Below, in pieces: positions 1 to 59,472 of a DNA stretch of 64,000 bases. The stretch spans positions 124,001 to 188,000 of the forward strand of contig CADAYE010000001.1 of the NCBI GenBank assembly GCA_902792085.1, in the 5' to 3' direction. The position numbers and the translations under genes are program-made. Numbering within the stretch: position 1 is the stretch's first letter; each line of letters starts with the position of its first letter. The notes beneath the pieces are model-generated. The model had not been told where the DNA came from. It was given only the letters and a program-made list of their open reading frames with translations, and ran no database searches. The stretch is from an uncultured bacterium. GTDB lineage: Bacteria; Cyanobacteriota; Vampirovibrionia; Gastranaerophilales; Gastranaerophilaceae.

Positions 1-942
1 AATTATAATAATGATTGGTCAGGTCAATTTACAGGTAAAGACGGTGTTTATAGTGTAGAAGATTTTTTAAATAATAAACAAGCGCAAGAAAATGCCCAAA
101 AAGCATTTAAGCAAGCGCAATGGCGTTATTTGCAAAATTCAGGTGCTACAAAATACTTGGGACAAACAATTAATGGAATTAAAATAACTCCAGCAGCCTT
201 ATTAGGAGGAGCACATATCGGAGGGCATGTTAAAGTTAGTGATTATGTGCATAGTGGAGGGAAAATTGACGGTAAAGATGCCAATGGAGTACCTGTAAGT
301 GAGTATATGCACAGATTTCAAGATTATGATGTTTCAGGTATTACAGGATTGAAATTTGATAATATCTCAGAAAATATTAATCAACAATCTGTTGTTACTC
401 AAGAGCCACATGAAACTAATAGTGTTCCTACTCCAAACAATATAAACTCAGATACTAATAATGCTCTATTCAAATTATTTGCAGAATACAACGCTTACCA
501 ACAAAACAACCTTCCTGATCTAAATGATTTGATGGTCAACCCTATTGAACAACAAATTCAAAAAACAAATCCATGGGATATGATCCCAATGGCTATACCT
601 GAAAGTTTAAGACAACCTTCAGGTGTTCCAACAGGTCAGGCTGCAAATTTTGATATCAATCAACTTGCAAATATGTTAGGAATTCAATTACCTGATGTAC
701 AATCTACAAATCAACCTAAACAGGATTCAGGCTTATTCGGTTACACAAATCCATTAACTGGCAGCAATCATATATACACAAGAGAAGAAGTTGGTGCGAT
801 GACTACGGATGAATTTGCCAAACATGAAAAAGAAATTGATGCACAAACAAGAGCATTCAATGGTACAATGCCGACCAATGGTGACATGCAGCGAGAAGCA
901 ATAAAACTGCGCCTCGCATTAAACGGCAACGCCTCCAATTAG
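1..942 (+). CDS. 3' part of a secreted-type or phage-like protein, family uncertain
   Basis: The reading frame is open from base 1, so the gene begins upstream of the window; 313 residues are visible. The first ~90 residues hold a motif chain (WSGQFTGKDGVYSVEDFLN, then TINGIKITPAALLGGAHIGG, then a YMHRFQDYDVSG stretch). I recall this layout from peptidoglycan-binding or phage/secretion-linked proteins, where such a unit precedes a variable tail. The rest is rich in Asn, Gln, Pro and Thr, with low complexity and no membrane segment, ending in KLRLALNGNASN. No catalytic residues could be assigned. It ends with TAG, and another frame carrying a typical C-terminal tail motif follows at 966-1091. 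Function unknown. Confidence 0.6.
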   Translation, partial: NYNNDWSGQFTGKDGVYSVEDFLNNKQAQENAQKAFKQAQWRYLQNSGATKYLGQTINGIKITPAALLGGAHIGGHVKVSDYVHSGGKIDGKDANGVPVSEYMHRFQDYDVSGITGLKFDNISENINQQSVVTQEPHETNSVPTPNNINSDTNNALFKLFAEYNAYQQNNLPDLNDLMVNPIEQQIQKTNPWDMIPMAIPESLRQPSGVPTGQAANFDINQLANMLGIQLPDVQSTNQPKQDSGLFGYTNPLTGSNHIYTREEVGAMTTDEFAKHEKEIDAQTRAFNGTMPTNGDMQREAIKLRLALNGNASN

Positions 943-965
943 TAAAAATATTCATTTTTACATAA

Positions 966-1091
966 TTGTCGGTCTGGTACTACGTACCTGCCTCTGCTCG
1001 GCTTGGTGGCGGTGTTGTGTATGTAAATTCATATACCCGTTCCGATGGAACACAAGTTAAAGGTTACTACCGTTCAAAACCGAGATTTTAA
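966..1091 (+). pseudogene. Orphan C-terminal tail (YTRSDGT..GYYRS motif), gene remnant
   Basis: A short frame without a start codon opens after a TAA at 963 and ends at TAA 1089-1091. Its end reads VYVNSYTRSDGTQVKGYYRS, a tail I recognise as a recurrent C-terminus of surface or phage-type proteins. It is in another frame than the preceding gene and separated from it by a stop, so it is either the displaced tail of that gene after a frameshift or a leftover of a lost neighbour. It includes the stretch CCTCTGCTCGG, which recurs in the modules next to tRNA-Glu. Confidence 0.4.
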
Positions 1092-1162
1092 ATTCATATC
1101 CATTAAATTAATGATGTGAAATTGTTGATTTTAGCCTAAAATAGTGTAAAATATAATAGATT

Positions 1163-1260
1163 TCTCCCCTTATGAGGGGAGAATACAAAAGGGGTGCTAT
1201 TCCGTCAGGTAAAAATTACAAAATGGCACCCATCCCTATCCCTTCCCTCGAAGGGAAGGG
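1163..1260. repeat. Two REP-like palindromes
   Basis: TCTCCCCT-tatg-AGGGGAGA (1163-1182) and CCCTTCCCT-cga-AGGGAAGGG (1240-1260) are C/G-rich palindromes in an AT-rich gap. The same kind of palindrome, flanked by 'cacccatcc'-like text, recurs at 9112, 11747, 15393, 32383 and near 61610. They are intergenic dispersed repeats; the second ends 24 nt before the helicase start. Confidence 0.55.
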
Positions 1261-1284
1261 AATTAAGATAAAAAGGGGAATCTT

Positions 1285-4200
1285 ATGTTACAGGAAGCAA
1301 CAAAAGCACTAAATTCAGCATTTAATAACAGTTTTATTAAGAAAATCAGTCAATATCTTCACGATTGTGTGCGTGAGGAGGTTAAAAGTTCAACTTTCCG
1401 AAACCTCAAAGGTGATAAAGATAACAAGTGGATTTTCTTAAAAGAAAAAGAAACTTTACTTACAAACGGTCTTGAATATTTAAAACTTGACGGGGCAAAC
1501 CCGAATTTGACCGAACTTATGATTCAGAGTGAAAATAATTCAAGAGATAAATACCTCATTTACGGTTATATGTTTTTGGTTGGCAGAAACGGAAAATCTA
1601 AGCGTCGTAATGAGTTTTTGACCCCGCTTTTGTATGTTCCGTGCAAATTGGAGCGAAACGGCGTAAATATAAATTGTATTCGTCAGGAAGATATTTTGTC
1701 TTTAAATACCGGCGCTTTGGCATCTTTGATGAAAAAAAGTGATGATGACGATGAAGTGGATTCTTTTTTGGAAGGTATTTTGGATGTTGTTCCTGATTTA
1801 CCTATTACAAAAGAAAAAATGGATATTTTCCTGACCACATTAAAATCACTTATTCCTGATGTTGAGATTGCTCTTGATAATAGCGAAGATGCAGATGAAG
1901 ATAATGTTTCAAGAGATGAAACACCTGATTATTCAAATGTTGAAATAAACGGTGATAATTTAGACGAAATAATTGAAGATGATATTCAACAGCAAAAACA
2001 AAAATATGAGGGGGATCTCAAAAAACTTTGTGTAACTTATCAAAGCGCAATTATTTTGACAAAACGCCCGACAGTTACGGCAGGTGTTTTGCACGAACTT
2101 TTGCAAATCGCAGAAAAACCAAGCGGAGTTTATCGTGAAACTACTTTATCAGTTATAAATGATGAATATAATCAGGCGGTTGAAAGAAACACAGTTAAAG
2201 ATGACAATACTCCTTTCTATCCGATTACTCCATTGTCTTTGAGTGATTCGCAGGAAAGAGTAATTAAAAATATTGAAAACAATAAATTTATTGCGGTTCA
2301 AGGACCTCCGGGAACAGGAAAATCTCAGACTATTGTAAACCTTGCTGCACACCTGATAGCAAACGGAAAAACAGTTTTAATTGCTTCCCGTATGGATAAG
2401 GCTGTGGATGTTGTTGCTGACCGCTTAAATGGTCTTGGGGCTCCGTATCTTGCGTTGAGGGCTGGAAGATTAAATTACCAAAGACAATTAAGTAATCAAC
2501 TCAAAGATTTGACTAATAATAAAATTAATCTTGATGATGATGTAGAAGATTATATTTTTGCAGATGTTGATGATATGAAAAAACATCTCGATATTATCCG
2601 TGAAACCGAACAAAAATGTGAAAATATTATAAAACTTGAGAAAAAATGGCACGATTTGAGAGATGAAATTAAAGAAAACTCTATGGCTGTCGGCGATATG
2701 CAGTATATTAAACGACCGCTTAAAAAATCCGAAATTGATAATATAAATGATGTTATCAAAACTTTGACGGAAAATATGGAAAAAGCAGGATTTTTTGCAG
2801 GTTTAAAAAATATGTCAAGTTTAAGACAACTCAAAAAAATTCTCGACTTAAAAGATTTTGAGGTTGAAAGTGAAAATTTAGATCGTCTGAAAGTCGAACT
2901 TGATTTTATTACTCAAAAGTGGCAGTTAAGAAAAATTGAAGCGGATATTCAAAAAATCGGTAATCTTCATGTCATGATGGAGCAAATTCGTCAACTCAAA
3001 AGAAAACAGAAATCTTTGGCAATAAATATCCTCAAAAGTTCTCGCCGTGAAGCGTTGAAATCACTTTTGCGTGATGCAAAAAAAGTTCGCAGAATAAAAA
3101 TTCATTCAAAATCACTTGTAAGTAACAGAAGAAAAAATTCTGAAAATATACTTGAAACAGAAGATTTCAAACCGTTATTAGAGGCATTCCCGTGCTGGTG
3201 TGTTACTACTTATGCGGTATCTGACAGTTTGCCTTTAAAACCCGGAATGTTTGATGTTGCAATTATTGATGAGGCTTCGCAGTGCGATATTGCAAGTTGT
3301 TTCCCGATTATGTACCGTGCCAAAAAATCGGTTATCGTAGGAGATGATAAACAATTACCGCACCTGTCTTTCCTTGAAAAAGCCAAAGAACAATCATTTT
3401 TAAGTCAATACGGAATCCCTGACAAGTATCAATTGATGTGGAGATTCAGAACAAATTCCATGTTTGATTTGGCAGATTACTATTCAATGAATTCTGTTAT
3501 GCTTGATGAGCATTTTAGAAGCCTTCCGCCTATAATCAATTTTTCTAACCGTGAATTTTATTCTGACAGAATAAGAGTTATGCGCAAGGACAAACTTGAT
3601 GAAAAAGTTTTGGATTTGGTCAAAGTTCAAGACGGAAAAGTTGATTCTGATGCAACAAGAAACCTGCCTGAAGTTGAAGAACTTGTCAAAGTTTTGCATG
3701 AAATTATTGTGGAAGACGAAAAAAATAACCCTGATAATCCGACAACCATCGGGATAATTTCACCTTTTAGAGCGCAGGTTGAACAACTGAAAATTTCTGT
3801 ACCAAAAGTTTTGTCTGATTACATGATTAAAAAACACCAAATTGAAATTGGTACGGCGCATACCTTTCAGGGTGATGAAAGAGATATAATGCTTATTTCA
3901 TGGGGCTTTGCAAACAATTCTCATCCGCAGAGCATTACATTTATTCAGAAACCTAATTTGTTTAATGTTGCGATTACAAGAGCGAAAAATAAATGTATAA
4001 ACTTTGTTTCTCACGATATTGAAACAATGTCAGAAGGGCATTTCAGAAATTATATTTCTTATATCAAAGAGTATTTGGAGCGCAAACGTGCGCTTGCAAA
4101 TGACGAAATAGATGCAAATATTTATAAAAACTCATTTGAGCGTGAAGTTGCCGATGAAATTCGTAAACTTGACCATCATGTACTCGCAGGGGTAGATATT

Positions 4201-4404
4201 GCAGGTTTGAGTGCGGATTTGGTTGTAGATGACAAGTTTATACTTGAAATTGACGGCGTTGAGGACAAGCAAAAGTCTAATATTTCAAATATGAAAAAGC
4301 AATCTATACTTGAGCGAAGCGGATATAAAGTTAAACGCATAACCTTCAGAGAATGGCAATATTCACCAAAGGCTTGTTTAGACAGAGTTTTGACACTTGA
4401 ATAA
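1285..4404 (+). CDS. SF1 (Upf1/Dna2-like) helicase fused to a C-terminal PD-(D/E)XK-type nuclease domain
   Basis: 1039 residues. Walker A GPPGTGKS lies at residues 340-347, after an unfamiliar N-terminal region with an acidic stretch. The helicase core continues with Walker B (IIDEASQ, Asp662-Glu663), then GDDKQLPHLSF, LDEHFRS, and motifs V/VI (GTAHTFQGDERD, FNVAITRAKN), as in AAA_11/AAA_12 helicases. A charged, probably coiled-coil insert fills residues ~430-620. The last ~100 residues (FEREVADEIRKL, ADLVVDDKFILEIDG, then a Vsr-like end) match DUF559/MTES_1575-type endonuclease folds. SD AAAAGGGG sits 7-8 nt before ATG. It stands alone in its transcription unit. Such fusions occur in DNA repair and in anti-phage or restriction-like systems; the sequence does not decide which. 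Confidence 0.85.
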   Translation: MLQEATKALNSAFNNSFIKKISQYLHDCVREEVKSSTFRNLKGDKDNKWIFLKEKETLLTNGLEYLKLDGANPNLTELMIQSENNSRDKYLIYGYMFLVGRNGKSKRRNEFLTPLLYVPCKLERNGVNINCIRQEDILSLNTGALASLMKKSDDDDEVDSFLEGILDVVPDLPITKEKMDIFLTTLKSLIPDVEIALDNSEDADEDNVSRDETPDYSNVEINGDNLDEIIEDDIQQQKQKYEGDLKKLCVTYQSAIILTKRPTVTAGVLHELLQIAEKPSGVYRETTLSVINDEYNQAVERNTVKDDNTPFYPITPLSLSDSQERVIKNIENNKFIAVQGPPGTGKSQTIVNLAAHLIANGKTVLIASRMDKAVDVVADRLNGLGAPYLALRAGRLNYQRQLSNQLKDLTNNKINLDDDVEDYIFADVDDMKKHLDIIRETEQKCENIIKLEKKWHDLRDEIKENSMAVGDMQYIKRPLKKSEIDNINDVIKTLTENMEKAGFFAGLKNMSSLRQLKKILDLKDFEVESENLDRLKVELDFITQKWQLRKIEADIQKIGNLHVMMEQIRQLKRKQKSLAINILKSSRREALKSLLRDAKKVRRIKIHSKSLVSNRRKNSENILETEDFKPLLEAFPCWCVTTYAVSDSLPLKPGMFDVAIIDEASQCDIASCFPIMYRAKKSVIVGDDKQLPHLSFLEKAKEQSFLSQYGIPDKYQLMWRFRTNSMFDLADYYSMNSVMLDEHFRSLPPIINFSNREFYSDRIRVMRKDKLDEKVLDLVKVQDGKVDSDATRNLPEVEELVKVLHEIIVEDEKNNPDNPTTIGIISPFRAQVEQLKISVPKVLSDYMIKKHQIEIGTAHTFQGDERDIMLISWGFANNSHPQSITFIQKPNLFNVAITRAKNKCINFVSHDIETMSEGHFRNYISYIKEYLERKRALANDEIDANIYKNSFEREVADEIRKLDHHVLAGVDIAGLSADLVVDDKFILEIDGVEDKQKSNISNMKKQSILERSGYKVKRITFREWQYSPKACLDRVLTLE

Positions 4405-4501
4405 CTCAAAGTCAATAAGTTCGTTCAGATATAAAATCTCTGTTCTCTGTTAAAGGAATAAGTTTTGTTATTGCGCACATGAGCGAAACAATCTAACCAT
4501 T

Positions 4502-4720
4502 TTACTTGCTTGTATCATTGAATATAATTTCAAAACCAAGAAGTTCTGCTATCATTTGAACTTCTGAATATGGCATTGTTCCTCTGCTCAATTTATTTGA
4601 AACAGATGCAAGAGTATATTTTTTCCCTGCGTGTTCAGACAACATTTCAGCGAGTTTAGTTATAGTCATTCCTCTTAATGCCAACATTGATTTTATTTGT
4701 TCTTTTGCACTTCTTTTCAT
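4502..4720 (-). CDS. Small HTH DNA-binding protein
   Basis: 72 residues from the ATG at 4718-4720, chosen because it aligns with the start of a paralogue at 62048-62254; an upstream ATG at 4756 would add 12 residues. Neither start has a clear SD. The core (SMLALRGMTITKLAEML, then ASVSNKLSRGTMPYSEV) is a compact helix-turn-helix of XRE/SinR type with almost nothing else, ending in an IAELLGFEI helix. The protein is small enough to be a lone regulator or a phage- or plasmid-type repressor. It faces away from the gene at 4854. AT-rich sequence with no other gene lies upstream. Confidence 0.65.
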   Translation of the reverse strand: MKRSAKEQIKSMLALRGMTITKLAEMLSEHAGKKYTLASVSNKLSRGTMPYSEVQMIAELLGFEIIFNDTSK

Positions 4721-4853
4721 ATTTTTTATTATACAAATTTGTTTATATGTTAACATATATGATAATGAAATATATAATTATCTATGTAAATGAGAATATA
4801 TTATCATTTATATAGATATATATTAAGCATAATTTAACATTTATGAGGCTAAT

Positions 4854-5075
4854 ATGTGCAAAACAAATGTAAACAAACAAGCGGAATTTATTACATCCGA
4901 ATTGTATAAAATTTCAGATATGACAAGGGTTATATATGAATCAATAAGTTATAATGCTGACAATGGAATAGATTGCAGTCATATTTTTGAAATAATTGAA
5001 ATATTAAACAATAAAATTGAAAATCTGATTGAAATTAGCAAAACGCAAGAATGTGTATTGACAAATATAACTTAG
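4854..5075 (+). CDS. Small hypothetical protein, paralogue of 57249-57455
   Basis: 73 residues, predicted all-helical, no signal peptide or membrane segment. It shares a pattern with the 68-aa protein at 57249-57455: a Lys/Ala/Glu N-terminus, then a two-residue variant of 'D(N)-I/G-x-D-C-S/T-H-(I/L)' followed by an 'EI(I)xxKxE' helix. That similarity over the whole length supports a real gene. SD 'gaggcta' precedes the ATG. Its 3' end overlaps the convergent Cys-rich gene by 4 nt. Function unknown. Confidence 0.55.
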   Translation: MCKTNVNKQAEFITSELYKISDMTRVIYESISYNADNGIDCSHIFEIIEILNNKIENLIEISKTQECVLTNIT

Positions 5076-5314
5076 GCGGTTTTTCTTTGTTTTTGCGGCA
5101 CACCGACAGTTGCAATAAGTGTTTCAATTACGCGGGGCATCTGACAGATAAACGAATAATGTCCCTGTGAAAGCGAACATTTTTTGCAGTCACAATTAAT
5201 TTCATAACATTCAAGCGCCTGCTGAGTCCAATTTTGAGTAATAGAATCAGAAATTTCTTCGTTTGCAGGCGAATAAAATTCATCCTCCAAGTCTAAATCA
5301 AGCCATTGTTCCAT
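5072..5314 (-). CDS. Small Cys-rich protein with C-x6-C-x-C-x2-C...C pattern
   Basis: 80 residues. An acidic N-terminus is followed by W(T)xxAxECY, then cysteines spaced C-x6-C-x-C-x2-C, and a later CQM, ending VxETLxxxxGxP. The gene at 20544-20819 encodes the same pattern, so this is a conserved family rather than a chance frame. Four to five closely spaced cysteines suggest zinc or an iron-sulfur cluster (inference). SD AAGGGGC lies 7-8 nt before ATG. Cytoplasmic, since no signal peptide is seen. I do not recognise a named family. Confidence 0.7.
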   Translation of the reverse strand: MEQWLDLDLEDEFYSPANEEISDSITQNWTQQALECYEINCDCKKCSLSQGHYSFICQMPRVIETLIATVGVPQKQRKTA

Positions 5315-5393
5315 AAGATGCCCCTTGTAATTCCTGCCCCAATATAATTATTTACGATATGAACAAGGTTTTTATCCTATATTTGTATGAGAT

Positions 5394-6287
5394 TTATCTC
5401 AAAGCGTTCCAAAAATATCTCTTAACTTTATCAACAAATGTTGCAGGGAAGATTTCATGCGGTTCGATAACCGAAATATCGTAATCTTCAGGCTGAGTTG
5501 CTCTTTGGTATTTCAAATCTGTTTTACCAAAAAGCATTACATAGCCGACTTTGTAGCCGTCAGGAATTTCCAAATACTGACACAGGTCAGGGATTAATTT
5601 CAGAGCAATTTCCGCAAATCCGCACCACAAAGTTCCGACTCCCAAACTTTGAGCGTAAAGTTCAAAGTAACTTAATAAAATTATCGGGTCAACAGGTGCG
5701 CACGGTGCAGTTACAGGCACAGACACAACCAACATGTGCGGTGCGCCTCTGAAAATTACATCTTTGCCGTCTATAAATTGTTGTTTGAATTTTTCAAATT
5801 TCTTTGATACAGGAAGCCATTTGTTTGATAAAAGTGCTTTTTTGATAGTATTATTAGTTCTGTTTCTGAATCTGTTCATAACTTCAATATCATCAATGAG
5901 TGCGATATGGAGTTTATGGTTATTACAGCCTGTCGGAGAATATTTGAGCATATCTTTGAGTTTTTGCATAGTCGCTTTGTCAAGATTTTCCTGCCTGTAA
6001 CTTCTTATACTTTTTCTGTGCTGAATAAGGTTCAAAACCTGTTCATCCGTTGGCAAATTATTATCACAAATGTCTGAATCCTCAGGCTTTTTGTCGCATA
6101 TTGAAATTGCACCGGCAGGACAAATTGCTAAACAATGCTGGCATTTCATACAATATTGTTCATTCCCCGATTTTACAAGCGGAAAACCTTCTTTATCAAA
6201 TTCTATAATTCCTGTACCACAGTCATCAGAACATTTACCGCAATGAATACATTTTTCCCTGTCCACAACAAAATTTAATTCTGACAT
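5394..6287 (-). CDS. Ferredoxin-nitroreductase fusion
   Basis: 297 residues. The N-terminal ~75 residues hold two [4Fe-4S] motifs (CIHCGKCSDDC and CMKCQHCLAICPAG). From ~88 on, a nitroreductase/FMN-binding domain begins with RKSIRSYRQENL, continues with SPTGCNNH, and has an Ala/Pro-rich core (GAPHMLVVS, LGVGTLWCGFAE). Such fusions use a ferredoxin-like module to feed electrons to FMN in anaerobes; the substrate is not evident. SD AGAGGAG is 7 nt before ATG. Last gene of a four-gene operon (11 nt after the membrane protein gene), so its redox activity may serve the aminotransferase/hydrolase pathway. Confidence 0.88.
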   Translation of the reverse strand: MSELNFVVDREKCIHCGKCSDDCGTGIIEFDKEGFPLVKSGNEQYCMKCQHCLAICPAGAISICDKKPEDSDICDNNLPTDEQVLNLIQHRKSIRSYRQENLDKATMQKLKDMLKYSPTGCNNHKLHIALIDDIEVMNRFRNRTNNTIKKALLSNKWLPVSKKFEKFKQQFIDGKDVIFRGAPHMLVVSVPVTAPCAPVDPIILLSYFELYAQSLGVGTLWCGFAEIALKLIPDLCQYLEIPDGYKVGYVMLFGKTDLKYQRATQPEDYDISVIEPHEIFPATFVDKVKRYFWNALR

Positions 6288-6298
6288 AATTTACTCCT

Positions 6299-6631
6299 CT
6301 ATTTTAAACACAAAACCGCAAGACTTGCGCAAAAGCATAAAATCTGGATAAATGTGTATATTTTTAATGTTTCATATTTTACAAGTTTTCCGATTATAAA
6401 TGGCGAAATTACACACAAAATCAAAAACATTGACCAAAAATTACGATTTACTATAATATCTGAAATAATATAAATGCTCAATGCAAGCATATATGGAATC
6501 ATTCCGCCTGCAATTACATATCCGTAAACGGCTTTGTTTTTCGGATTTTCAAATTTGTGGAATAATCCTGCACATAGCACAAGTATTGCAACTATGTTTA
6601 AAATTATAGTTGTAAGCGTAATTATATTCAT
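6299..6631 (-). CDS. Small membrane protein, unknown function
   Basis: 110 residues with about four hydrophobic helices (e.g. TIILNIVAILVLCAGLF near the N-terminus; a second pair around residues 40-80; a last one near FIQILCFCASLAVL). Its ATG overlaps the stop of the upstream hydrolase gene (ATGA at 6628-6631), a strong sign of translational coupling. No family recognised. Part of the aminotransferase-hydrolase-membrane-nitroreductase operon. Confidence 0.7.
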   Translation of the reverse strand: MNIITLTTIILNIVAILVLCAGLFHKFENPKNKAVYGYVIAGGMIPYMLALSIYIISDIIVNRNFWSMFLILCVISPFIIGKLVKYETLKIYTFIQILCFCASLAVLCLK

Positions 6632-7464
6632 ACTGTTTGTAGTTCTCTCTGTTGTGTTTTTTGTGGTGTAAATTCGTCTAAAAATTCTTTTACCGTGTTC
6701 ATTACAAATTCTTTTTCGTTATCGTAAAGTACCATGTGATAACTGTCATTGAGTTCAACATATTTTTTAATCTTTGATGAAACTCCTTCTAAAACAACTT
6801 TTGCTCCTTTTGTGCTTGAAAGATTATCATATTTTGAATGGATACACAAAATCGGACAAGTCACATTTTTAAGATTTTTTCTGACATTTTTTGATAATTT
6901 CAAAAGTCCGTCAACACAATTCAACGGGTAATTGTCCATGCTTATATTTGCTTTCGCGGTAATTTTTGCAAGACTTTTTCTTGTGCGTTCGTTTTTAACC
7001 CCAAAACAATCGTCTTCAGGAAAAGTATAATAAAATCTTATTATTGTACTTAAAGCGAACGGCAAAAGTGAAATTGTCCATGGGATACAAAAACCGTCCA
7101 AAAATAAAGTCGTAGAAAGTGCAATAATTCCTGTCAAATCCTTATTATGTTCACCCAAATATACTGCCATTGCAGCACCCAAACACAAGCCCGAAACAAA
7201 AAACCGGTTATAATTTTTTCTCAAATTTGTGTATTTATTTTGAGCAAATTCGCACCAATCCTGCCATGTAACAGTTTCAATTTCGCTTATTCTGTCGCCA
7301 TGTCCCGGAAATGAGTAGCAAAAAACATCATACCCGTTTTTAAACAAAAAATCACCGTATTTTTTCATCTCAAACGGACTGCCTGTCAAACCGTGAAACA
7401 ACAGTACGGCTTTATCTGTTTCAGAGTCGTTATGTATAAGTTCAAAATCTATACTTTCGGGCAC
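6628..7464 (-). CDS. Alpha/beta hydrolase (carboxylesterase / serine-aminopeptidase S33-like)
   Basis: 278 residues. The oxyanion strand LLFHGLTGSPFEM opens the fold, and SFPGHGDR follows. The nucleophile elbow is GLCLGAA, that is G-x-C-x-G with Cys where Ser is usual; read the cysteine as the candidate nucleophile. The acid is likely in CIHSKYDNLSS (Asp) and the base in DSYHMVLYD (His). This layout resembles carboxylesterase Est30/YvaK-type enzymes. No signal peptide. GTG start at 7464 immediately follows the TAA of the aminotransferase gene, with GAGG about 10 nt upstream; the stop overlaps the next ATG. Confidence 0.82.
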   Translation of the reverse strand: MPESIDFELIHNDSETDKAVLLFHGLTGSPFEMKKYGDFLFKNGYDVFCYSFPGHGDRISEIETVTWQDWCEFAQNKYTNLRKNYNRFFVSGLCLGAAMAVYLGEHNKDLTGIIALSTTLFLDGFCIPWTISLLPFALSTIIRFYYTFPEDDCFGVKNERTRKSLAKITAKANISMDNYPLNCVDGLLKLSKNVRKNLKNVTCPILCIHSKYDNLSSTKGAKVVLEGVSSKIKKYVELNDSYHMVLYDNEKEFVMNTVKEFLDEFTPQKTQQRELQTV

Positions 7465-12981: not shown

Positions 12982-13171
12982 AGGAGGAGGTGGGATTCTG
13001 TCACGGCGCTCGCCTTCGATGTGACTTCGCGTCTTGCTTTTAGTTGCAAGTGTGCAACAAGCAAGACGGCTCCGCACTTGGCTCGCTTGTTCAACCCACA
13101 AAACAGGGGGGGGCTCATCCTCACCTCACTCATTGCAATAAAAAATCACCCTTTCGGGTGGTTTTAAATGG
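12982..13171 (-). mobile_element. 190-bp structured module bounded by tRNA-Ser 3' ends
   Basis: The 17-bp AGGAGGAGGTGGGATTC at 12982-12998 repeats exactly the tRNA-Ser stretch from position 73 to the T-loop (13172-13188). The intervening DNA is GC-rich for this genome. It holds a long hairpin at 13030-13068 (CGTCTTGCTT... AAGCAAGACG with an inner GTTGCA/TGCAAC stem), a partial T-arm copy (TCAACCCA, 13091-13098) and the current tRNA-Ser terminator. Same build as the two modules beside tRNA-Glu, so it is probably a miniature integrated element. Confidence 0.55.
13139..13165 (-). terminator. Rho-independent terminator of tRNA-Ser
   Basis: On the minus strand: CACCC-gaaa-GGGTG followed by ATTTTTT, starting just after the tRNA-Ser 3' end. 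Confidence 0.65.
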
Positions 13172-13258
13172 AGGAGGAGGTGGGATTCGAACCCACGGAA
13201 CGCTTGCACGTTCGACAGTTTTCAAGACTGCTCCGATCAACCGCTCTGGCACTCCTCC
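13172..13258 (-). tRNA. tRNA-Ser(UGA)
   Basis: Minus-strand cloverleaf: acceptor GGAGGAG/CTCCTCC, anticodon stem-loop CAGTC-TTGAAAA-CTG with anticodon TGA, a long variable arm (GAACGTGCAAGCGTTC) typical of Ser, and T-arm GTGGG-TTCGAAT-CCCAC. CCA is not encoded. The base at position 73 reads U, unusual for bacterial tRNA-Ser (G73 expected). A copy of positions ~57-73 lies 190 bp away at 12982. Confidence 0.93.
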
Positions 13259-56743: not shown

Positions 56744-56938
56744 CGGCGGTAACGGGAATTGTCTTGAGTCGCTCGCTATAAACGGCATTACAGGTCACGA
56801 CCCTTGTCGTGCCCTTTCAGCCTCTGCTCGCTCCTCGCTGAACCCTATTGACAAGCCTTTCGGCTTGTACGGGTTCTCAAATCGCAACAATTATATCAGC
56901 CAATAAAAAAGACACGATAAACGTGTCTTTCTCATTGG
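56744..56938 (-). mobile_element. 195-bp tRNA-end module A
   Basis: Starts with CGGCGGTAACGGGAATTG (56744-56761), identical to positions ~56-73 of tRNA-Glu on the minus strand, followed by a structured GC-rich insert. The insert begins TCTTG and has CACGAC-cctt-GTCGTG and ACAAGCC-tttc-GGCTTGT hairpins and CCTCTGCTCG. A second T-arm piece, TGAACCC, lies at 56839-56845; the terminator hairpin at 56908-56930 ends the previous unit. Same layout as module B. Confidence 0.55.
56908..56930 (-). terminator. Terminator hairpin at module B/A junction
   Basis: Minus strand: AAAGACACG-tttat-CGTGTCTTTTTT, directly after the displaced tRNA end of module B. Confidence 0.7.
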
Positions 56939-57134
56939 CGGCGGTAACGGGAATTGTCTTGCAATCCTCGCATGGGACGGCTTCCGTGTCGGCAACCCTG
57001 TCAGCCGACCGCTTGAACATGTTGCCGACAACTTCAGCCTCTGCTCGGATTGCGCTGAACCCGAAAAGGGGCTAAATCCCACTGTTACACGCTAAATAAA
57101 AACGAGAATCCCAAATGGTATTCTCGTTTTTATT
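56939..57134 (-). mobile_element. 196-bp tRNA-end module B
   Basis: Starts with the same 18-bp tRNA-Glu end (56939-56956) plus TCTTG, as in module A. The insert contains a 10-bp inverted repeat TGTCGGCAAC/GTTGCCGACA (56987-57030 region), CCTCTGCTCGG, and TGAACCC at 57056-57062. It ends against the real tRNA-Glu with its own terminator (57096-57132). Confidence 0.55.
57096..57132 (-). terminator. Terminator of tRNA-Glu
   Basis: AAAAACGAGAAT - loop - ATTCTCGTTTTTAT, just after the tRNA 3' end on the minus strand. Confidence 0.8.
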
Positions 57135-57206
57135 CGGCGGTAACGGGAATTGAACCCGTGTTTGCAGAATGAGAATCTGCCGTCCTGACCACTAGACGAT
57201 ACCGCT
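57135..57206 (-). tRNA. tRNA-Glu(CUC)
   Basis: 72 nt on the minus strand. Anticodon stem-loop GCAGA-TTCTCAT-TCTGC with anticodon CTC; D-arm TCGTCTAGTGGTCAGGACG; T-arm ACGGG-TTCAATT-CCCGT; acceptor 3' strand TACCGCC and G73. The 5' side reads AGCGGTA, so pair 1-72 is A:C, a mismatch. CCA not encoded. Its 3' end from the T-loop on is repeated twice downstream at 195-196 bp steps. Confidence 0.92.
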
Positions 57207-57248
57207 ATTGATAATTAAATTATAGGTCGAAAATTATTTAATTCAAGA

Positions 57249-57554: not shown

Positions 57555-57764
57555 ATGAACACAAGAGCATTAGGTTTAAATATTAAAGCAGAAAGAAACA
57601 GAAAAGAACTTTCTCAGGAAAGACTCGGAGAATTGGTAAATCTGAGTACAAATTCTATAAGTTTAATTGAAAAAGGCAAGCAAATTCCTAACGCAATAAA
57701 CTTATATTTAATTGCCAAAGTTCTTGAAGTAGATATAAATGAATTATTTAAAGGAATTGAATAA
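57555..57764 (+). CDS. XRE-family HTH regulator
   Basis: 69 residues: LGLNIKAERNRKELSQERLGELVNLSTNSISLIEKGKQ is a classic Cro/C1 HTH, with only a short C-terminal helix (DINELFKG). Stop TAA overlaps the ATG of the protease gene (TAATG), so the two form one operon. A lone repressor of this kind often controls its own operon. Start ATG 57555 has no SD; a promoter sits 6 nt upstream. Confidence 0.85.
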   Translation: MNTRALGLNIKAERNRKELSQERLGELVNLSTNSISLIEKGKQIPNAINLYLIAKVLEVDINELFKGIE

Positions 57765-58342
57765 TGGGTATTATGAAAAAATTTTTGATATCACTATTAA
57801 TAATTTTCACGGGAATATTTTTCTTTGGCTTAAAATCATTTGCCGCAGGTAACTATGGCCCGCATTGGCAAAAACAGGTTATCAAAGTTTATATTGCAGA
57901 TGACAGTTATGCCGAAATGATGCAGAGAGCGTTCCAAAAATGGGTTGAAAAAAGTAACTCCCGATTAAAATTTGAATATGTAACAACCCCGCCTGCAGAT
58001 ATTGAAGTTGATTTTGCAGATGAAACAGACGGAACTGACGGCGATATTGGTTGTTATTCTTTAATTATAAAAGGTGGTGCAATTACTAAAGCAAATATAG
58101 TTATCGCTCCAAATCCTACTAAAAATTCAAATAATCTTATTTATACAGTAATGCTCCACGAAATCGGACACGCACTCGGATTAAATGATTCATCAAGAAA
58201 ATTGGGAATAATGAGTACACCTGTAACTGAAAATCAAGATATAATAAATACAGATATGCTAAGACTTTTTCATCTCAATGGCTGGACTTATATTGACAAA
58301 AATTCACCTGAACCTGCAGTAAAACAAACTACCGAAGATTAA
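57764..58342 (+). CDS. Secreted metzincin-type metalloprotease, Asp as third ligand
   Basis: 192 residues with a signal peptide (KKFLISLLIIFTGIFFFGLKSFA). The mature part has the metzincin zinc motif HEIGHALGLND (His132, Glu133, His136, Asp142 in place of the usual third His) and a Met-turn GIMS. Asp as third ligand is known from snapalysin-type enzymes. Translation is coupled to the XRE gene (TAATG) with AAGGA before ATG. Convergent with two matrixin-like genes; the 3' end overlaps the next by 14 nt. Confidence 0.8.
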   Translation: MGIMKKFLISLLIIFTGIFFFGLKSFAAGNYGPHWQKQVIKVYIADDSYAEMMQRAFQKWVEKSNSRLKFEYVTTPPADIEVDFADETDGTDGDIGCYSLIIKGGAITKANIVIAPNPTKNSNNLIYTVMLHEIGHALGLNDSSRKLGIMSTPVTENQDIINTDMLRLFHLNGWTYIDKNSPEPAVKQTTED

Positions 58343-58877
58343 TTCCGTAAAGTGAATACAATGCGCGGATATCATTAGTTCCGATTTCTTGCCGTATTGC
58401 AATGCCAAGATTTGTAGAAGCAAACATTATATCGTTGTAACCTTTTGAATGAGTAAGCCCCAAACAGTGACCGATTTCATGACGCATCACTGCATAAACT
58501 TGCGTATTACTTAACAAAAGACCTTTCGGTCGCCTTTTGGCAATATATATTCTTGAATGCATATTACCATTATGACGAAAGTTCTTTGTACAACCCATTG
58601 CTTCAGGACTTCCGCAGTAATCAGTCAAATCTTTTTCTATAAAAATTACATCAATATCCGAATCTTCTATTGATTTTGCACTTTTAAAAGCGATATAATT
58701 TTTACTTTTTCTCTGCCAATCATCAAACGCTTTTTTCATCAGACTTGTTTTATCATCACCCTGCGGAATATATACAGAAATATTTTGCGGATTACTCCAG
58801 CGCCAAACACTTTCTGCTTTTATCTGAAAATAAAAACCAAAAGCAATTAATAAAAAACATAAAAATATTTTTTTCAT
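58329..58877 (-). CDS. Secreted matrixin-like metalloprotease
   Basis: 182 residues. Signal peptide (KKIFLCFLLIAFGFYFQIKA); N-terminal IPQGDDKTSLMKKAFDDWQ, then zinc motif RHEIGHCLGLTH (His133, Glu134, His137, His143) and Met-turn DIMFAS. Four cysteines in the mature part (YCGSPEAMGCTK and others) may form disulfides. 1 nt after the stop of the upstream paralogue, so cotranscribed. Confidence 0.87.
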   Translation of the reverse strand: MKKIFLCFLLIAFGFYFQIKAESVWRWSNPQNISVYIPQGDDKTSLMKKAFDDWQRKSKNYIAFKSAKSIEDSDIDVIFIEKDLTDYCGSPEAMGCTKNFRHNGNMHSRIYIAKRRPKGLLLSNTQVYAVMRHEIGHCLGLTHSKGYNDIMFASTNLGIAIRQEIGTNDIRALYSLYGINLR

Positions 58878-58878
58878 A

Positions 58879-59472
58879 CTATTTTATTCCATATAATTCA
58901 TAAAGAGTTTTTACATCTTCCGGTTGAATTTCCTGAACTTCAGCCATTTCGGAATTTGTACCCTCATACATCAGGCTTTTTTTATCTTTTGAATGTTGAA
59001 GTCCCAATGCGTGACCAATTTCGTGCAGCATTATAGTATAAACCTGATTTTTCGTCATAGGTTTGCCGTTCATATCGTAAACTGAAATATATATTTTAAC
59101 TCCTAAAATTCTTTTGTTGCCGTGTACGGTTTTTGCAGAAACAAAAGAACAGCAGCCAAGTGCTTTATCGTTATGACATATTGCCCCCATCCCGGATTCA
59201 ATAAATACTACTTCCATATTTGCGGTACTTTTTGTTCCTACAAATTCAAAAGTAAAATTCCCGCCGGTATGTTTTTGCCAATCCATAAATGCGTGTTTCA
59301 TTGTCGTTGAGAGCATATCTTTTCGCGGAATATAAACTTTCAATCCCTGAGTTTTTATTAATACAGGCTTTGAATTGGGATTTGGCGGGGATGCCGGCAT
59401 AATTGCGCAAACATTTGTCTGAATTATAAAAAATAAAAATATTACAAAAATAACCGAAAAAATCTTTTTCAT
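58879..59472 (-). CDS. Secreted matrixin-like metalloprotease
   Basis: 197 residues. Signal peptide (KKIFSVIFVIFLFFIIQTNVCA), mature part with YIPRKDMLSTTMKHAFMDWQ, zinc motif LHEIGHALGLQH (His150, Glu151, His154, His160) and Met-turn SLMYEG. Paralogue of the next gene. The matrix-metalloprotease-like fold suggests degradation of proteins or peptides outside the cell; the substrate is unknown. Confidence 0.88.
   Translation of the reverse strand: MKKIFSVIFVIFLFFIIQTNVCAIMPASPPNPNSKPVLIKTQGLKVYIPRKDMLSTTMKHAFMDWQKHTGGNFTFEFVGTKSTANMEVVFIESGMGAICHNDKALGCCSFVSAKTVHGNKRILGVKIYISVYDMNGKPMTKNQVYTIMLHEIGHALGLQHSKDKKSLMYEGTNSEMAEVQEIQPEDVKTLYELYGIK

Follow-up and report, generated by a model that had tools for sequence, protein, structure and literature searches.

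The intact tRNA-Glu (CTC) gene on the minus strand of the window, i.e. the whole stretch of 64,000 nucleotides analysed here, anchors a short tandem array whose features are collected in Table 1. An 18-mer from its 3′ end, CGGCGGTAACGGGAATTG, is found three times on the minus strand in steps of 195 and 196 bp, once inside the gene itself (57135-57152) and twice as displaced copies at 56939 and 56744. This threefold repeat had been described in an earlier note on the same DNA and is confirmed. The statement of that note that each copy is followed by its own terminator is slightly too strong, because it applies to two of the three copies and no convincing terminator follows the distal one at 56744. 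The further landmarks named there are placed correctly: TGTC is the GACA of the core end CAAGACA, the CCTCTGCTCG hairpins correspond to CGAGCAGAGG, and TGAACCC is the T-arm 5′ copy. G+C amounts to about 50% in the modules compared to about 28% in the flanks. A scan of the 64-kb window with Rfam at the gathering threshold returned tRNAs only. The region 57764-59472 beside the tRNA-Glu gene encodes three small proteins that are predicted to be secreted and carry a zinc-protease motif of the HEIGHxLGL type.

Modules of this kind share a common order. Read on the tRNA strand, the intact tRNA is followed by a terminator; a hairpin of the form GAGAACNN...NNGTTC; the segment T5s, which briefly repeats the 5′ half of the host T-arm and ends in GTTCRA; a folded core of ~95-110 nt; and the segment T3, in which the host tRNA recurs from position 59 onwards (56939-56954 after the core of unit A) up to its end, usually with a terminator behind it. 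The core can be written as GC-S1-GAGCAGA-GGC...GCC-GTTTATTGCGA-S1'-CAAGACA. It lies exactly between positions 58 and 59 in the T-loop of the copied tRNA or tmRNA T-arm, always in a single orientation, and excising GC...AAGACA restores the exact host T-arm in most cases, as read by eye. The hairpin partner of T5s is present in 88 of 95 modules. Since a unit comprises 3′ end, terminator, hairpin, T5s and core and is then followed by a 3′ end, the real tRNA stays complete; it is left with a full 3′ end and a terminator.

Table 1. Features of the tRNA-Glu array and of a related core in the window (window positions).
Feature	Position	Strand	Basis
tRNA-Glu (CTC), intact, anchor of the array	57134..57207	-	ARAGORN; Rfam 61.4 bits
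Unit A terminator hairpin, directly after the real tRNA	57090..57139	-	inverted repeat I2, 88% complementary
Unit A T5s GGGTTCA, copy of the host T-arm 5′ half	57056..57062	-	sequence; host matching tested
Unit A folded core (GCGCAATCC GAGCAGAGGC ... GCCGTCCCATGCGA GGATTGC AAGACA)	56955..57055	-	covariance model match 56949-57062, 89.7 bits; covariation supports the fold
First displaced tRNA-Glu 3′ end, 18 bp identical	56939..56956	-	sequence repeat
Unit B terminator hairpin	56899..56939	-	inverted repeat I4, 89% complementary
Unit B hairpin GAGAACCC-gtACAAGCCgaaaGGCTTGT-caata-GGGTTC, T5s partner	56840..56878	-	sequence
Unit B folded core (GCGAGGAGC GAGCAGAGGC ... GCCGTTTATAGCGA GCGACTC AAGACA)	56760..56838	-	covariance model match 56754-56845, 92 bits
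Second, most distal displaced tRNA-Glu 3′ end, 18 bp identical	56744..56761	-	sequence repeat
Further core of the same family, 3′ of tRNA-Ser(UGA) 13169-13258(-)	12993..13097	-	covariance model, 41.5 bits

Conservation of the core is divided between sequence, in the internal loop GAGCAGA / GTTTATTGCGA, and pairing, in the stems. The stems covary strongly. In an alignment of 96 sequences 89.4% of the cells are paired compared to 67.1% after shuffling, and the covariation score reaches 0.448 versus 0.124 for shuffled sequences and at most 0.072 when the pairing partners are slid; this alignment was fitted to the model and is biased towards structure, the first eight sequences having been aligned by sequence alone.

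A BLAST search of the 398-bp stretch against the genome of the window revealed the same pieces 3′ of tRNA-Gln, Leu, Arg and Lys, the core of unit B being 90% identical to that at tRNA-Gln. A motif search of the same genome added a tmRNA with two modules. Together with tRNA-Ser (Table 1), these loci answer positively the suggestion of the earlier note to inspect other tRNA ends. Using a covariance model built from an alignment of eight modules, about 22-27 core matches were found in this genome (27 at E<=1; best E 1e-26) and 0-28 in each of 46 genomes of the genus, which are draft MAGs of uncultured rumen Cyanobacteria, probably of Melainabacteria type. Matches extend through the order, and none of 17 genomes from other families of the class contained any. 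For 101 of 164 cores, a same-strand tRNA or tmRNA of one of 17 kinds ends 53-99 nt upstream (median 70); ~20 of the remaining cores are second units, and most others are cut by contig ends or lie within larger elements. The tests were run on related sequences and the counts do not represent independent events; the pattern is far beyond chance. An exact-pattern scan of viral contigs gave no match, and no matching element was found in the open-access literature.

The flanks of a core follow its host. In 95 modules, the T-stem base before GTTC in T5s is that of the host in 96% of cases versus 50% with shuffled hosts. For pairs of cores that are at least 85% identical and reside at tRNAs with different T-stems, T5s fits its own host in 349 of 352 comparisons and the other host in 80 of 352. 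Many tandem neighbours, in turn, have 90-121 nt of terminator, hairpin and T-arm copy in common and carry different cores. Near-identical cores at different tRNAs, host-fitting flanks and differing cores within an array point towards the core as the moving part and towards flanks that belong to the locus, which is the simplest reading. In recent cases the 3′ end and its terminator are nearly the same on either side; 19 of 87 modules reach an identity of at least 90% there, compared to about 1 of 300 random control pairs. No core-less T-arm copies occur within 900 nt at 95 loci, with the exception of a second-family copy (see below) and a neighbouring tRNA, and therefore arm copy and core arise together; the idea that cores land later in older, core-less tRNA scars was dropped for the same reason. 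Core-type palindromes are also found outside tRNA loci. On contig C7 of the same genome (L097 9285-9359 and 10011-10085) one lies in frame within tnsB, as an insert of 60 bp, and another between tnsB and tnsC; both are absent from two close homologues. As judged from sequence comparison, we regard the family as established, along with its fold, the precise 58|59 junction and the fact that it moves between tRNAs while the flanks fit the host.

The tRNA-Glu locus holds 0, 1 or 2 units in different species, a variation that the earlier note had proposed to look for along with empty sites. Module-free tRNA-Glu loci do exist, but none aligns base by base, the neighbourhoods being different or the contigs ending. 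One candidate for an empty site (G032) was discarded as unsafe, its contig stopping 75 nt past the tRNA, and no fresh insertion was observed among the assemblies compared. In the genome of the window unit A adjoins the tRNA and unit B lies behind it; two relatives have a B-like unit directly beside the tRNA, an order that would result from new units being added on the tRNA side. The A:C mismatch at tRNA position 1-72, for which the note had suggested replacement of the tRNA end as a possible origin, occurs at all 30 tRNA-Glu loci read and, since it is genus-wide and also present at loci without modules, does not stem from end replacement.

A second core family, CTCTCG...CTCGGCAGAGT, is represented by about 110 matches in 46 genomes, compared to 0 for the reversed pattern, with up to 29 matches in a single genome. 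It is found at both ends of tRNA genes: within T-arm copies (Glu, tmRNA), an anticodon-arm copy (Met) and D-arm copies (Ile, Leu, Pro, Val, Met, Thr), the latter located upstream of intact tRNAs. Hairpins outside tRNAs contain it as well. That the same architecture recurs with an unrelated core is an argument for a general process in these genomes that targets tRNA arms and duplicates one tRNA end. Loci of this family are L349-L378 and L185-L193, and three copies in ~111-bp steps lie at C19:6563-6827 of the genome studied. Larger dispersed repeats away from tRNAs hold a related or second-class core (GAGCCAAAGC ... GTCGATGGCGA; L016, L017, L020, L050, L051, L053, L055 and window positions 911-1002).

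Overall, the modules are best explained, and probably correctly so, by a mobile folded core whose insertion into the T-loop is accompanied by duplication of the tRNA 3′ end and its terminator. Insertion would be site-specific at the T-loop, and the duplication of 3′ end and terminator would leave the host unharmed. With the newest unit nearest to the tRNA, polarised tandem arrays would result. The core itself would serve as a folded single-strand recombination or insertion site, similar to an integron attC site or a REP-type hairpin, and would be driven in trans by a putative enzyme, for which the conserved internal loop is the candidate recognition element. A tyrosine recombinase is a first guess for this enzyme, although a rather doubtful one. 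Gene conversion between resident modules could account for part of the sharing of cores.

The earlier note had read the array as miniature integrated elements bearing the mark of integrases that cross over in the T-loop. Mobility, targeting of tRNAs and a size too small for an enzyme gene are retained from this proposal; the plain integrase att pattern is not. Integrase elements at tRNA-Lys (L145), tRNA-Glu (L148) and tRNA-Arg (L281) have uninterrupted T-arm repeats, a module, where present, lying beyond the repeat, whereas in the modules the core interrupts the arm copy at 58|59. Because ordinary integrases leave uninterrupted repeats at the same tRNAs, the integrase reading is only partly supported, and plain att remnants were rejected as an origin of the modules. 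These are located outside the integrase elements and are present independently of them. The mini modules encode nothing, no integrase was found within them, and the integrases at the same tRNAs belong to separate elements with plain att sites. An autonomous parent with integrase and core ends was also considered and discarded, the larger core-ended elements being Tn7-like transposons inside modules. In detail, the model of miniature integrated elements assumes a circle of 3′ end, terminator, hairpin, T5s and core that a tyrosine recombinase integrates in trans at the T-loop, with the core as attP arm. Direct repeats of 3′ end and terminator, the T-loop crossover, the constant orientation, arrays with the newest unit proximal and the abundance of integrases at the same tRNAs are in accordance with it. 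We nevertheless consider it unlikely, as a circle that moved between tRNAs would equip its new tRNA with a foreign acceptor end, yet the flanks match their host in 349 of 352 comparisons. In addition, the model does not predict a T5s copy within the unit, the repeats of integrase elements at these tRNAs are plain, and the modules hold no integrase. If, alternatively, the modules were old residents of their tRNAs, with arrays growing by unequal recombination and cores swapped by gene conversion, the common flanks and different cores of tandem neighbours as well as the near-identical cores at different tRNAs would be accounted for. Conversion tracts would, however, have to stop at 58|59 nearly every time to give the same host match of 349/352, units are gained and lost at tRNA-Glu, and cores also insert in protein genes, which makes this scenario quite improbable.

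The larger elements beside the cores are Tn7-like transposons situated inside modules. Their genes encode a ~570-aa TnsB (Mu-transposase-C/rve), a TniB-like AAA protein, a 138-aa HTH protein and a 183-aa protein with a tyrosine-recombinase SAM-like DNA-binding domain. The latter may be a target selector, with a precedent in TnsF, an inactivated tyrosine recombinase used for this purpose (PMC10293859). Such transposons lie 3′ of tRNA-Tyr and tRNA-Ile at C1:102966-115935 of the window's genome (L098, L341) and G004:C2:9110-28286 (L339, L277), and close TnsB relatives occur 3′ of at least ten kinds of tRNA or tmRNA. Their left end is found 57-94 nt after the T-loop with no fixed insertion distance, and clean 5-bp target duplications (CAAGC, TTTGT, ATAGT) are present; for the ATAGT insertion, the empty site is the tRNA-Leu module of the genome studied here. 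TniQ is absent from the eight genomes searched. Some core-ended elements carry defence genes (L280 (G020:C55) 1141-7440; L278 (G037:C25); L277 (G004:C2)), among them a CBASS operon (patatin, CD-NTase, E1/E2, JAB) and type I restriction-like and dGTPase-like genes, as assigned by eye.

Modelled on the truncated crRNAs by which type V-K CASTs home (PMC11406308), the core could be the scaffold of a guide RNA and the following 16-18-nt copy of the tRNA 3′ end its guide, leading the transposon to tRNA genes. The order, scaffold and then guide, fits, TniQ-less TnsB/TnsC transposons do occur 3′ of many tRNAs, and all transposon right ends found fall in modules, although these were mostly found via core searches. 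Nevertheless, no Cas12k-like effector was seen among the transposon genes read, the distance from T-loop to insertion is spread over 57-94 nt, genomes at least 90% complete with 10-14 cores have no TnsB, and the distal copies of the tRNA 3′ end decay, so that we judge a guide function very unlikely. Still less credit can be given to a RAYT-type Y1 transposase that mobilises the cores as REP-like palindromes; there is hardly any chance of this. The genus does have Y1 transposases of RAYT size, one of them 0.75 kb from a core-like match in the genome of the window, but the palindromes around the RAYT genes (GTAGGGTAGACTTTAGTCTACC and similar) are their own and do not resemble the cores, and 22 of 34 good genomes, core-rich ones included, have no Y1 match. 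As its flanking palindromes differ from the cores, RAYT is largely refuted as the mobiliser. The RAYT-type Y1 genes with palindromes of their own are located at L431-L439.

Transfer RNA genes are among the commonest docking sites for bacterial mobile DNA. The elements known to us to use them encode an integrase and come with kilobases of cargo. In the present case, a fold of ~100 nt without genes apparently spreads among tRNA genes, inserting at one precise point and sparing each tRNA through a duplication that fits the host, and this spread calls for a new enzyme or mechanism. The 58|59 junction together with the covarying core provides a sequence handle for finding it. Further, the arrays serve as landing pads for Tn7-like transposons, some with defence systems, and may shape the sites of immunity islands in gut bacteria. 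It is a serious possibility, although short of probable, that the modules represent an undescribed mobile class in which non-coding hairpins target the loops of tRNA arms and duplicate one tRNA end so that the gene survives, building polarised arrays with flanks rewritten for each host; two unrelated core families would then use T-, anticodon and D-arms and both tRNA ends.

Similar to phages, ICEs, IMEs and tycheposons, which move by tyrosine recombinases, the modules target the tRNA 3′ half, displace the 3′ end, restore the tRNA and accrete in tandem. They differ in being ~195 bp long and gene-free, in the core-split displaced arm and in flanks re-matched to each host tRNA; an uninterrupted att block at both ends is not found, the distal T-arm copy being split at 58|59. 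The truncated crRNA units of V-K CASTs likewise consist of a structured repeat and then a short tRNA match near Tn7-like transposons 3′ of tRNAs, whereas the modules lie outside the transposon end, also occur without a transposon, and are accompanied by no TniQ found and no Cas12k seen. With integron attC cassettes the modules have in common a folded palindrome with variable, covarying stems and conserved internal-loop positions, and presumably array polarity, the newest unit lying at the anchor. In contrast, they are anchored at many tRNA genes and consist of gene-free units with no linked integron integrase; no GTT/AAC R-box consensus was seen in the cores, judged by eye alone, and none of the mini modules read had an integrase linked to it. 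Rickettsia palindromic elements and REP/RAYT systems are also short mobile palindromes that occur in frame in protein genes, and an in-frame palindrome missing from homologues, a trait of the Rickettsia type, is found in tnsB on contig C7. The modules are distinguished from these by their specificity for tRNA arms, the duplication of one tRNA end and the lack of a GTAG-type head. We place them as a variant among mobile palindromes or elements that integrate at tRNAs; the chance that they form a new class is substantial.
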